Assembly: GCA_029243485.1 (NCBI GenBank)
Contig: JAQWRY010000079.1
Coordinates: 1 to 64,000, forward strand
DNA: 64,000 nt
Reading direction: 5' to 3'
Source: Candidatus Binatia bacterium
GTDB taxonomy: Bacteria; Desulfobacterota; Binatia; UBA12015
Part shown: positions 1 through 23,286 of the stretch, one piece after another
Numbering within the stretch: position 1 is the first letter of the stretch
Layout: the number at the start of each line of letters is the position of its first letter
Position numbers and translations under genes: made by a program
Notes under the pieces: model-generated
What the model was told of the DNA's origin: nothing
Seen by the model: only the letters and a program-made list of their open reading frames with translations
The model's database searches: none

Positions 1-97
1 CTCGCGATTTTTGTTTAGTCGCGGTGGAACTTCAGCTTGGATCGGAACGTTCGGCGTCCGCGACTAAACAAAAATCGCGAGACTAACCAACGTCCCC
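1..97. repeat. Palindromic 3'-end element, copy 1 (cut by window start)
   Basis: The left arm begins inside the window edge (ctcgcgatttttgtttagtc), and the right arm at about 58-97 is its inverse complement extended by gactaaccaacgtcccc. The outer end (97) touches the stop codon of the receptor pseudogene (TGA, complement of 98-100). Read from that gene, the element continues in frame as GGG GAC GTT GGT TAG. The loop (about 25-57) is clearly related, in reverse complement, to the loop of copy 2. No transposase is visible nearby. The form resembles REP/BIME or MITE-like elements, but that class assignment is inference. Confidence 0.9.
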
Positions 98-4619: not shown

Positions 4620-6944
4620 ATGATGGCGCGGTCGCTCTGGGTCGTTCTACTCTTGCTCGATCTTCTCGTCGTCCCGACACCCCGGACATGGGCCCAAGAC
4701 GCCCCCCCGGAAGCCGAGAAAGACAGGGGTCGGATCGAGGAAATCATCGTTACGGCCCGCCGTAGGGAAGAACTCCTCGAGGACACGCCGATCTCGATCA
4801 CGGCGGTCACGGCGGACGCACTCCGCGAGACCGGCGTCACGCGCCTGAATCAGATCCAGGAACTCGTCCCTAACCTGACCTTCTACTCAGGCCGCTCCGG
4901 AACGACCTCCGCCGTCTTCATACGCGGCGTCGGGCAGGTGAATTCCATCATCACGTTCGACCCCGGCGTCGGGATCTACGTCGACGGGGTCTTCCTCGCA
5001 CGCGCGGCCGGCTCGGTGCTGAACGTATCGGACATCGCACAGGTCGAGGTCCTGCGCGGCCCCCAGGGGACGCTATTCGGCAAGAACACGGTCGGCGGTG
5101 CGATGAACATCACCACCGTGCAGCCCAAGGAGGAGCTCGAAGGCTGGGCGTTTGTCCGAGCCGGTAGCTTCGACTCGGTCCAAACGCGCGCAATGGTCAA
5201 CATTCCGGTCGACTTCGGCTGGCTCGAGGACAAGCTCTTCACCCGCTTCTCGTTCTCCTCCGAGAACAGCACGGGCTACACGAAGAACACTTTCCAGAAT
5301 CGGAACGGGAATACGAGGAACTCCCTCGCGTTCCTGGGAGCCGCTCGCTTTCTGCCCACCGAAGACATCGAGTTCCTCTTGAAGGGGAGTTGGTTTCGCG
5401 ACCATACGACGAGCAAGGGCGGAGAATGCGTCGTGGTGACGGATCCGTCGCCGCTCTCCGGGCTGATCCAGGAACCGGGCTTCCTGCCCGCGTGCCGCGA
5501 TAGCCAACCATACCGCTTCCAAGCCGACACCGCGTCCATCGCGGACCTCGAGAGCTACGGCCTGTGGGGCGTCGGCACCTGGGACCTCGGCGATGCCGGC
5601 CCCGCCGAGAACCTCTCACTGAAGTCGATCACTTCGTGGCGCGAGCAGGTTCCTCAGATCCGCGAAGACGGCGACATGACGCAGTTTCGCGTTCTGCAAT
5701 TGAACGACATTCCCGGCGATCCACCGTTCAATGGAGAGGCGGGCCATCAACAACAGATCAGTCAGGAAATCCAACTCCAGGGCGATGCCCTCGAAGGCAA
5801 CCTCTCCTACATCGGAGGCTACTTCACCTATTGGGAGACGGCGGACGCGACCCAGACGATCGAGTCGCTCACGAAAGCGCCGGCGAGTCTCGGCGGAAGC
5901 TCGCGAGCCCACGTCGCCGTCGACAACTGGTCGTGGGCCCTGTTCGCCCAAGCTACGTACGATCCGCTCGAGTGGCTGAGCCTTACCGCCGGGCTCCGGT
6001 ACACCGAGGAGAAGAAGGGCTTCGCGAAGAATCAGATGAACGTCTTGAACGGCGACATCATGGTCGACGCAGACGAGAGCGAGGTCTTCACCGCGTGGAC
6101 TCCGATGGCGAACTTGTCCATCCGCGCACCCGACGATTGGATCGACTCAACACCCTTCGATCACTTGCTCGGCTACCTCACCTACAGCCAAGGCTTCAAA
6201 GGCGGTGGCTTCAACGGCAACACGCGCAGCGGTGTCCCCGATCAACTCCAACCGTTCGACCCGGAGACGCTCGACTCGTACGAGATCGGCTTCAAGACGA
6301 TCTCATGGGAACAGAAACTCATCTTCAACGTCTCGCTCTTCTATGGCGACTACTCCGACATCCAGGTCTCCACCGTCGTTCCGGGCAGTGGCTTCCTCGC
6401 GGAGATCGTGGTGCGGAACGCGGCAAAGGCGACCACGAAAGGCGGTGAGTTCGAGCTTACCGCCCTCCCCTTCGACGGCGCGCAGATCATCGGCTCGATC
6501 GGCTTCGTCGATGCCACCTACGACGACTTCTCGAGCGTGAGCGCTCTCGACAATTCCGTGATCGACCGGGCGGGCGAGCCGTTCAACGACATTCCGGCGT
6601 TCCAATCACGCCTGACATTGCAGTATTCCTACGAGCTCCCTGCGTTCGGGCCCGACTGGCTCGACGGCTGGATCACACCGCGACTCGACTGGTTCTATCG
6701 AAGCGCCGTGAACTACCAGTTCCCGGAACTCACCCAGGCCGTACAAGGCGGATACAACTTGCTCCACGGCCGCCTTTCCTACGATTTCAACAACGACCGC
6801 AGCCAGGTCGCGTTCTGGGCCCGAAACCTGACCGACGAAGCCTACTTCCAGCAGGTCCTCCCAACAGCCAGCACCCTCGGAACCGCAACGAGGTACTACG
6901 AATCCCCGCGCTCGTTAGGAGTAGAGTTGAGCCACCGCTTCTGA
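4620..6944 (+). CDS. TonB-dependent outer-membrane receptor
   Basis: A 774-residue receptor with a complete domain order. There is a signal peptide ending near residue 25 (TWAQD), a TonB box EIIVTARRR at about 41-49, a plug domain with VEVLRGPQGTLFGKNTVGGA, and a 22-strand-type barrel ending ELSHRF with the terminal Phe expected for BAM recognition. It imports a ligand across the outer membrane using TonB/ExbBD energy. The family resembles the large group used for complex organic compounds as well as siderophores, and the ligand cannot be told from sequence. ATGATG gives two adjacent starts; the first is used. The stop TGA (6942-6944) is immediately followed by palindromic element copy 2. The broken paralogue at 98-2392 has the same arrangement. 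Confidence 0.93.
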   Translation: MMARSLWVVLLLLDLLVVPTPRTWAQDAPPEAEKDRGRIEEIIVTARRREELLEDTPISITAVTADALRETGVTRLNQIQELVPNLTFYSGRSGTTSAVFIRGVGQVNSIITFDPGVGIYVDGVFLARAAGSVLNVSDIAQVEVLRGPQGTLFGKNTVGGAMNITTVQPKEELEGWAFVRAGSFDSVQTRAMVNIPVDFGWLEDKLFTRFSFSSENSTGYTKNTFQNRNGNTRNSLAFLGAARFLPTEDIEFLLKGSWFRDHTTSKGGECVVVTDPSPLSGLIQEPGFLPACRDSQPYRFQADTASIADLESYGLWGVGTWDLGDAGPAENLSLKSITSWREQVPQIREDGDMTQFRVLQLNDIPGDPPFNGEAGHQQQISQEIQLQGDALEGNLSYIGGYFTYWETADATQTIESLTKAPASLGGSSRAHVAVDNWSWALFAQATYDPLEWLSLTAGLRYTEEKKGFAKNQMNVLNGDIMVDADESEVFTAWTPMANLSIRAPDDWIDSTPFDHLLGYLTYSQGFKGGGFNGNTRSGVPDQLQPFDPETLDSYEIGFKTISWEQKLIFNVSLFYGDYSDIQVSTVVPGSGFLAEIVVRNAAKATTKGGEFELTALPFDGAQIIGSIGFVDATYDDFSSVSALDNSVIDRAGEPFNDIPAFQSRLTLQYSYELPAFGPDWLDGWITPRLDWFYRSAVNYQFPELTQAVQGGYNLLHGRLSYDFNNDRSQVAFWARNLTDEAYFQQVLPTASTLGTATRYYESPRSLGVELSHRF

Positions 6945-7057
6945 GGGGACGTTGGTTAGTCTCGCGATTTTTTTTTAGTCGTGAACGCCGAGCGTTCGGG
7001 CCCGAGCTGAAGTTCCATCGCGACTAAACAAAAATCGCGAGACTAACCAACGTCCCC
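6945..7057. repeat. Palindromic 3'-end element, copy 2 (shared by two convergent genes)
   Basis: The arms start ggggacgttggttagtctcg and end with its exact inverse complement. The stem is about 37 bp, with a G-to-T mismatch in the left arm (ttttttttta versus tttttgttta). It begins on the base after the receptor stop codon. Its right arm contains the stop codon of the convergent sugar-kinase gene: GGG GAC GTT GGT TAG reads as the last four residues GDVG plus stop. The loop matches the reverse complement of the copy 1 loop with scattered differences. It could act as a bidirectional transcription end or RNA-stabilising hairpin. Mobility is inferred only from copy number. Confidence 0.93.
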
Positions 7058-21348: not shown

Positions 21349-22020
21349 ATGTCGTCTTCCGGCCTGCTCCTCGCAGCGGCGACCCTGACACTCGTCGGGG
21401 TCGCCGGTACGGCCGTCACCGACCCGGCGCAGTCCCTGTTCAACGGACGCGGCGAAGACCCCAACGGCGTGTACACCGTCGTCGAAGAGGACGGTGAGCC
21501 GGCAATCCGGATCTCCGGCGAAATCTGGGGAGCCCTCGTCACCCGGAACGAGTTCGAGGACTACCACCTACGCCTCGAGTACAAGTGGGGCGAGGACCGC
21601 CATGGCCTGCGCGCCGACGCCCCGCGCAATACCGGCGTCCTCTATCATTCCGTCGGTCCCGACGGCGCGTTCTGGAGCTACTGGATGCGCTCGGCCGAGT
21701 TCGAGGTCATGGAGGGCCGCACCGGCGACTTCACCTCCGTGGACGGCATCGAGGCCACGATTCCGACCAAGTGGGGCCTCCGCCACCAAGTCGACGGCCA
21801 CGAAACCCCCCTCACCCGAGGCTCCATCCAACTCCAATCCGAAGGCGCCGAAGTCTTCTTCCGCCGCCTCGAACTCCTCCCCCAGAGTGGGGACGTTCCC
21901 CCAGAGTGGGGACGTTGGTTAGTCTCGCTGATTTTGTTTAGTCGCCGCACGCGGTATACGCGGGGCGCCCACCGGTTCACCACGGCTTCGGCCGCGACTA
22001 AACAAAATCAGCGAGACTAA
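21349..22020 (+). CDS. DUF1080 (3-keto-disaccharide hydrolase-like) protein with element-encoded tail
   Basis: An exported protein with an N-terminal signal peptide (ending near residue 24). It has the DUF1080 beta-sandwich pattern LFNGR near residue 30, then RNEFEDYHLRLEYKWGED, then RNTGVLYHSVGPDG, a segment with EFEVMEGRTGD, and GAEVFFRRLELLP at the natural C-terminus. DUF1080 enzymes act on 3-keto-glycosides, as hydrolases or lyase/hydratases. After residue about 178 the frame runs through palindromic element copy 3, adding about 45 residues unlike any DUF1080 end and stopping at TAA in the right arm. A 19-bp tandem duplication at 21879-21916 caused this: removing one unit gives the ending LLPQSGDVG plus TAG. 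It is likely functional unless the tail interferes. Confidence 0.82.
   Translation: MSSSGLLLAAATLTLVGVAGTAVTDPAQSLFNGRGEDPNGVYTVVEEDGEPAIRISGEIWGALVTRNEFEDYHLRLEYKWGEDRHGLRADAPRNTGVLYHSVGPDGAFWSYWMRSAEFEVMEGRTGDFTSVDGIEATIPTKWGLRHQVDGHETPLTRGSIQLQSEGAEVFFRRLELLPQSGDVPPEWGRWLVSLILFSRRTRYTRGAHRFTTASAATKQNQRD
21879..21916 (+). repeat. 19-bp tandem duplication at the element border
   Basis: cccccagagtggggacgtt occurs twice in direct succession (21879-21897 and 21898-21916). The unit spans the gene/element junction, containing the outer ggggacgtt of the palindrome plus ten bases of flank. Its length (not a multiple of 3) shifts the DUF1080 reading frame into the element. Confidence 0.95.
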
Positions 22021-22031
22021 CCAACGTCCCC
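21908..22031. repeat. Palindromic 3'-end element, copy 3
   Basis: The first 37 bases (starting ggggacgttggttagtctcg) pair perfectly with the last 37. Relative to copies 1 and 2, both arms carry the same change (ctgattttg for cgatttttg), so pairing is preserved. The loop is longer and unrelated to the other loops. It lies between the DUF1080 gene and the isomerase gene. A TGGAGGTGATTC ribosome-binding site for the latter begins directly after the element, so the palindrome sits in a probable polycistronic transcript. Confidence 0.95.
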
Positions 22032-22044
22032 CTGGAGGTGATTC

Positions 22045-23286
22045 ATGTCTGTTCGTGCGTTCGAGCCGGAGTTCATGCCGATTGGTGTGCTTACGGCGGC
22101 GTTGCAGGAGTTGACGCCGCGCGAAGTGCGCGACCCTGATCCGGATCGGGCCATCGAAGAGTGGCTCGAGTTTGCGGCGGAGCTCGGGGCGGACGAGATT
22201 CAGCTGGCGGCGGCACTGCACCCGGATGAGTCCGACGTGCCGGCGGAAGCGATGATGGACCCGGTCGCGAACACGCTCGACCTCCGGGCGCCCTTCGATC
22301 CGAAGCGGGCGGATCGTGTGCTCGCCTCGGTAAAGTCGACGGGTGTCGGGGTCGCAGACCTCGGCTATTTCGACAACATGCTGCACGCTGACGCAGCGGT
22401 TCGGAAGAAGAAGCATGACTTCATGGTGCGGGTCTTTGACGCGGCGGCGCTCCTCGGCTCACGCGCGGTCTGCGGATTCGTCGGTAGGAATCAAAACAAA
22501 ACGGTCCAGGAGAACCTCGACGAATTCGAGCAGGGGTTCATCCCGCTCCTCAAGGAAGCGAAGAGCCGCGAACTCGAATACCGGATCGAACAGTGCCCGA
22601 TGCCCGGCTGGACGCTCGACGATTCGTTCCACAACAACATCGGCTACACGCCGGGCACGTGGATCGCCCTGCACAAAATATGCGAGAAACACGGCGTCGG
22701 CGATCAACTCCGGATCCACTACGACCCGTCGCATGCGATCTTGATGGGCCAGGATACCCGGTCGATCTTCCAGTACCTGAAGGACGAGGGATACGCCTTC
22801 CTCGTCGCGGGCTTCCACGTGAAGGGCCAGGTAATCGACCCCAAAGGGCTCGCGGCCTGGGGCTACGGCGGCCAAACGATCGACCGCGGCGACTACGTGA
22901 ACGGCAAGCCGTCGGAGAACCCCGCCGATCACGGCAACGCGTGGAAGAAACAACTCAGTATCTGCGAGCACGAACTCCCGGGCACCGCCCGCCACGACCC
23001 CCTTGCCTATCTCCAGAACCGCACGGTCGATTGGCTCGACCACCAACTCGCCGCGCGCGAACTCCTCGAGATCGACGTTCTCGATACGCCCCTGATCGTC
23101 GAGCACGAGTACGGCGCCGCACGCGTGCAGGACCGCGAGAGCCTGAAACCGATCCTGCAAGGCTCGATCGCCTTCACCCGCCACATCGACGAGGCCGCCG
23201 CGTGCATGTTCTCGCTGCAGAACGAGGTTCTCGCCGCGCAAGACATCCCCGTACAAGGCGTGGGCCGACGCGCCTACTACACCTGA
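22045..23286 (+). CDS. Sugar phosphate isomerase/epimerase-like TIM barrel
   Basis: A 413-residue protein of the xylose-isomerase-like (AP endonuclease 2) fold. Metal-site features along the barrel include [12 protein letters not shown] (Glu ligand), [14 protein letters not shown] (the Asp/His pair after strand 6), [11 protein letters not shown] (His) and a late HEYG segment. The length is greater than the usual about 280, with inserts and a C-terminal extension. In 3-keto-sugar clusters such proteins act as epimerases, isomerases or lyases on keto intermediates. Here it follows a DUF1080 gene and precedes a Gfo/Idh oxidoreductase. A strong ribosome-binding site (GGAGGTGA) precedes the ATG. 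Cytoplasmic. Confidence 0.88.

Follow-up and report, generated by a model that had tools for sequence, protein, structure and literature searches.

Recurrent tandem duplications at the feet of miniature palindromic elements, one of which shifts the reading frame of a DUF1080 gene

Introduction

Why does a gene encoding a DUF1080 protein read straight through a palindromic element and stop in its far arm, when most genes that cross the edge of this element end within its first bases? The gene lies on contig C79 of an 88-contig draft genome of a Candidatus Binatia bacterium, in the stretch of 64,000 nucleotides analysed here (the window). The features of the window to which the argument refers are the following.

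21349..22020, plus strand: DUF1080 (3-keto-disaccharide hydrolase family) open reading frame of 223 residues that crosses the element (PF06439 and translation)
21879..21897, plus strand: first repeat unit, made up of 10 bp from the gene end and 9 nt that copy the element tip
21898..21916, plus strand: second repeat unit, whose last 9 nt are the true element start
21908..22031, unstranded: miniature palindromic element of 124 bp (palindrome search, family comparison and fold)
21908..21948, plus strand: left arm, 41 nt, 98% complementary to the right arm
21991..22031, minus strand: right arm, 41 nt, 98% complementary to the left arm
21920..21922, plus strand: element TAG, the stop of 27/32 edge-crossing genes, out of frame in the window gene
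22018..22020, plus strand: TAA stop in present use, in the right arm (reading of the open reading frame)
22045..23286, plus strand: next gene, xylose isomerase-like TIM barrel (PF01261, 57.5 bits), with its start codon 13 bp past the element
6945..7057, unstranded: second element copy, which gives GDVG-TAG to a minus-strand PfkB-family kinase (stop 7043-7045)
1..97, unstranded: third element copy, cut by the contig start

The tandem repeat and the reading frame

The 19-bp direct repeat that the first-pass annotation had placed at the gene/element border is borne out in the assembly: CCCCCAGAGTGGGGACGTT is present twice in exact tandem (21879-21897 and 21898-21916), and the two copies are identical, with 0 mismatches. 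The register of the repeat can be moved one base leftward, and the palindrome starts at the GGGG of the second unit. No further CCCCCAGAGTGGGGACGTT was found in the window at up to 3 mismatches (0.02 expected per shuffle), nor was the 19-mer found in the genome beyond 21879-21916 at up to 2 mismatches. As control DNA from the same genome (397 kb) holds 18 exact tandem duplications with units of 9-40 bp, a unit of 19 lying exactly at the element edge is not a chance match. The hexamer CAGAGT was considered as part of the element and rejected, being exact at the window locus only.

Because 19 is not divisible by 3, the element TAG is out of the DUF1080 frame. The frame shift and read-through described in the same annotation stand, since after the duplication the open reading frame crosses the palindrome and reaches the TAA at 22018-22020 inside the right arm. 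Its estimate of a tail of approximately 45 residues is matched by the 45 residues counted after LELLP; the element proper, which 186 residues of the reading frame precede, encodes about 37 of these. Reading a single unit likewise gives what had been claimed, a protein of 184 residues that ends LELLPQSGDVG and then TAG; the kinase at 7043 ends RVGDVG and then TAG.

A family of hairpin elements and its putative transposase

The tip of the element recurs throughout its own genome. The sequence GGGGACGTTGGTTAGTCTCGC was found at 67 tips with up to 2 mismatches, and the looser tip GGACGTTNNTTARTC occurs 104 times in this genome versus 0 times in 13 other genomes of the family; 38 other relatives gave one lone tip match, with one mismatch. 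A search of genome_contigs and viral_contigs, a set in which the own genome is possibly not included, returned 0 exact 20-mer tips. Complete small copies mostly measure about 110 bp from tip to tip and have variable loops, and the single-strand fold of the window element has z = -12.

The sole PF01797 gene of the genome sits in a long copy on contig C71 with the same inverted ends (L045, G000:C71:19800-23900), where the long terminal inverted repeat GGGGACGTTGGTTAGTCTCGCC... is found at 1538, with its inverted partner at 2577. The encoded protein matches PF01797 with 33-35 bits, above the cut-off, and NF047646 REP_Tyr_transpos with 67.4 bits, under the cut-off of 80. Its translation contains SNHVHIV and IRYVHANP, candidate sequences for the HUH motif and the catalytic tyrosine. 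A PDB search with this protein found no relatives. In the named genomes, 24 loci with relatives of the transposase were found, among which L113, L114, L116, L120, L122, L124 and L126 have inverted repeats with GGGGAC or GGGACA. Judged by these sequence features, the palindrome is a predicted miniature element of a RAYT/TIRYT-type Y1 transposase and a putative non-autonomous relative of the C71 copy. No target-site duplication was evident in 28 paired copies, where the shared flank word was mostly 1-4 nt and once 7; the absence of a larger target-site duplication is a feature of IS200/IS605-type insertion. The foot tetranucleotides at 77 ends include GGAG (16), GGTA (6), GTAG (1) and many others, and that of the window is AGTG.

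Among known systems, the C71 element and its repeat family fit the TIRtrons of Di Nocera and colleagues. As described in the available part of PMC3733652, TIRtrons/TIRYT likewise have a RAYT-like Y1 gene between long inverted repeats, with the same repeats dispersed and moderately abundant. The TIRtron motif GGGGWSAS, found in some TIRs only according to the same partial text, is matched by GGGGACGT at the first six positions, whereas the last two are GT for AS. A likeness to REPINs and REP sequences with their RAYTs also exists, judging by the excerpted text of PMC3116915: an inverted pair of ~110 bp, a single hairpin, a position near gene ends and a single-copy transposase. Unlike REPINs as presented there, the present arms are near-perfect inverted repeats of 38-41 bp and the GTAG head is not fixed (GGAG at 16/77).

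A second class of tips, AGGGACGTTC(T/G/C)TTA(A/G)TC, was observed at L080, L086, L099 and L103 and at similar loci of the own genome. These tips are often headed GGT/AGT and have no obvious partner arm; they are perhaps REP-like singlets of the same family.

Stop codons donated by the element

For a survey of gene ends at the element, 106 element ends were gathered from the own genome, and the C49 fold-back end (L060, minus strand) and the second C63 copy were dropped before counting. The three flank frames were scored by codon usage trained on 29 long open reading frames of the window, so that frame calls are codon scores plus Pfam support. At 76 ends a strictly called gene heads towards the element; 36 of these genes end 4 nt or more short of it, 8 end at its edge and 32 run past the edge. 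The TAG of GGG GAC GTT GGT TAG ends 27 of the 32 edge-crossing genes (p 3.8e-9 vs one third), and the other five stops lie at +31 (three), +98 (one) and +110 (one, the window gene). With looser gene calling 29 of 38 edge-crossing genes stop at the element TAG, and Pfam backs the frame in 23 of 26 scanned TAG-ending proteins of this loose set of 29. The GDVG-stop ending, with RDVG and a few other variants, is a signature found genome-wide, from which the window gene departs because of its duplication. The transposase copy itself gives DVG-TAG to the genes on both sides, a protein kinase-like gene and an amidohydrolase gene.

The elements thus put the same short C-terminus and stop on many unrelated proteins, an arrangement that a small foot duplication breaks. 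That REP termini often supply TAG stops is known (PMC3733652, available in part); there, stop donation is given for GTAG REPs, and the frame bias of the present element was not found described in that part of the paper. The bias may stem from a preference in where the element inserts or from selection that disfavours longer tails.

Near the other two copies in the window, the stretches 1-809 and 6252-7041 are inverted paralogous gene copies approximately 6 kb apart (74-84% complementary), both of which end TTCTGAG directly at the element, as though the element had been copied along with the end of the gene. Not all element ends are independent, since the copies near 1-97 and 6945-7057 stand at paralogous gene ends and were maybe co-copied.

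Foot duplications in the own genome

A foot duplication was defined as an exact tandem duplication with a unit of 9-40 that ends within -3 to +11 of the foot. After the C49 fold-back end (L060, minus) had been dropped, 6 of 105 ends carried one, versus 0.06 expected from two events in 52 kb of flank; against the intergenic rate of the same genome (6 in 66 kb) the excess has p 1e-8. Ordinary gene 3' ends, taken from control genes called with the codon score only, showed a duplication in 2/301 cases (Fisher p 0.005 vs element feet). The six exact cases lie on C18, C79 (the window), C88, C21, C86 and C1; further cases are found on C63 (unit 7) and at C86:596571 (unit 21, imperfect). Among the six, the window duplication alone shifts the frame of a called gene: that on C21, with a unit of 9, leaves the frame intact, and the genes on C18, C86, C1 and C88 have already stopped before the element edge. 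A 13-bp near-repeat on C11 (L034), of which 9/13 bases recur, was not counted.

Less exact traces are also in excess. With both L060 ends left out, imperfect duplications (up to 15% mismatch) occur at 9/104 ends versus 7/1030 control windows, and truncated tips of 8-10 nt lie just upstream of intact feet at 2/104 ends, one being that of the window, versus 0.07 expected. The flank part of the duplications is 5-12 nt long; the unit in the window is one of the longest. Over all cases, those in Elusimicrobia (below) included, junction homology is 0-1 bp and the inner breakpoints fall 1-9 nt inside the stem. No shared dinucleotide or cut-site consensus was found at the outer junctions.

Foot duplications in Elusimicrobia and Clostridia

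Three Elusimicrobia genomes carry a related but different GGGGAC element, and here 5/106 ends are duplicated versus 0.5 expected (p 1.7e-4); these ends represent a part of the tips located and, as the three genomes have some orthologous elements in common, are not fully independent. In all five cases the unit takes 10 nt from the flank and 2-3 nt from the tip, give or take a slide of one base. One orthologous element has a duplication in G148 and a single unit in G149 and G150, and at another a duplication is present in G149 and absent from G148. At least these two therefore arose at elements already in place and are not insertion targets. Duplications with up to 15% mismatch were found at 8/106 ends versus 10/795 control windows, and truncated 8-10 nt tips upstream of intact feet at 3/106 versus 0.05 expected. 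Two Clostridia genomes, with tips taken from 40 places in G154 and 20 in G155 out of a larger number, gave 1/74 versus 0.12 expected, which is consistent but not significant.

Collectively, foot duplications are shown statistically to be a recurrent product at such elements in two element families. Seen in two phyla, and with a ruler-like geometry, this recurrent scar at the junction represents a genomic signature that can be tested in isolates. Within the literature consulted, namely partial texts under open licence, stop donation by such elements is already reported, whereas foot duplications were not found described, including in the available part of PMC3733652.

How the duplications may arise

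At the window locus, the DUF1080 gene has at its 3' terminus a miniature hairpin element that is predicted to depend on a transposase. The single-unit reading and its 27 parallels suggest that the reading frame at first closed at the element TAG, which gave the gene product the tail GDVG. Later, a tandem duplication across the foot would have copied about 10 bp of the gene and the first 9 nt of the element. Taken as a whole, this account of a transposon hairpin, a donated stop, a later foot duplication and a tolerated tail is probable in our judgement. The non-significant Clostridia result (1/74) and the variable flank in the own genome (5-12 nt) count against it.

As to what makes the duplications, the Y1 transposase may nick the DNA 5-12 nt outside the hairpin foot; synthesis by a polymerase from the 3' end so released may then run into the first few bases of the hairpin, and once this strand is sealed to the displaced 5' end, flank and tip would be present twice. 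The chemistry assumed here resembles that of TnpA-REP, for which cleavage on either the 5' or the 3' side of the hairpin is described: after cutting by HUH enzymes, a 3' OH is available to prime synthesis or to rejoin by attacking the 5' phosphotyrosine (PMC8266576, from the part available). Excised REPINs, moreover, carry a 5' tail, according to the portion of PMC3116915 at hand. Differences from TnpA-REP are that its accessible text describes no tandem duplication and that the REP transposases under study there cleave at CT or CA (PMC8266576), a consensus absent at the present junctions. The absence of a common outer dinucleotide counts against nicking. On the movement of REP-like elements in general, the printed evidence, as far as these partial texts go, consists of cleavage in vitro and a small number of excised reads (PMC8266576; PMC3116915). 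Taken on its own, nicking, extension and rejoining by the transposase is offered tentatively as the likeliest cause, a little below an even chance.

Its close rival is replication stalling, in which the polymerase would halt in the first stem bases and restart approximately 10 nt back, with no transposase involved. Most of these facts would also fit replication alone as the cause: the hairpin is very stable as a single strand (z = -12), and the inner breakpoints lie 1-9 nt into the stem. Slippage normally requires homology, however, and the junctions have no more than 0-1 bp of it, while the Elusimicrobia flank is constant at 10 nt, making stalling a possible but doubtful explanation.

The third candidate is the scar of a lost second element, whereby a second copy with its own short flank, inserted or duplicated in tandem, was later lost and its first bases were left. 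A repeat of 8 nt of flank and 67 nt of element before the start of a second element on C63 resembles what such a loss would begin from, excised REPINs leaving about 6 bp have been described (PMC3116915, partial text), and immediately upstream of feet truncated tips of 8-10 nt are commoner than expected. This origin is nonetheless unlikely, as the C63 case sits at a contig end and most extra copies retain just 1-2 nt of tip. The C63 locus (L044, G000:C63:75787-75889) is a 75-bp tandem repeat at the contig end, and could be an intermediate form or an assembly artefact.

An assembly or sequencing artefact at the hairpin is more improbable still. Assembly trouble is to be expected at the element, because contig ends of the draft often fall there (for example C79:1-97, C88:1-59, C86:1-84 and C49:21020-21196), and at the C49 end (L060) the flank is repeated as a fold-back copy. 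Further, the window duplication could be an assembly error, as it is known from one assembly of one strain. However, the window copy is interior to its contig, the pattern is repeated in three Elusimicrobia assemblies from unrelated projects, and units of 9-19 bp are shorter than the usual assembly words.

Returning to nicking by the transposase, the broader reading that RAYT/TIRYT-type transposases leave a diagnostic scar, a homology-free duplication of a near-fixed ~10 nt of flank and the first 2-9 nt of the element, seems to us doubtful at present. If true, one genome would suffice to read past transposase action on an unmoved element, and the window duplication would be a scar that switched a gene's stop codon.

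The DUF1080 gene and its tail

The protein that carries the read-through tail is itself incomplete. It matches PF06439 with 45.7 bits (cut-off 26.8), with the best stretch covering profile positions 2-95 of 187, and it holds part of the profile and not the whole domain, two stretches being missing. Two homologues were found in 148 genomes of the class, one in G031 and the other the genome's own paralogue on C22. Both have two internal stretches of roughly 30 and 60 residues that are missing from the window protein (21349-21878) with the frame unbroken. The conserved part of the window protein stops at LELLP, immediately before the repeat. The homologues end in ELQPIESLEAAWEMSPEVGR (G031) and RPAQPEG (C22), and the comparison of homologue ends that had been proposed as a check finds the tail absent from both. 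These features suggest that the gene is probably decaying, which may be why a frame-shifting duplication was tolerated. Given the two missing stretches, the 45 residues of the tail are most probably an accident that a decaying gene has tolerated, with no function.

That the tail is a selected, functional C-terminus is very improbable: the frame is open across 45 residues, and in-frame palindromic elements, some of them expressed, are described for Rickettsia proteins (PMC3733652, available text), but neither homologue has a counterpart, one other long tail of such kind (on C72) is found among the 32 edge-crossing genes, and the protein has lost the two internal stretches, its domain match being confined to profile positions 2-95 of 187. 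A search for similar plasmid DNA gave a single weak DUF1080 match.
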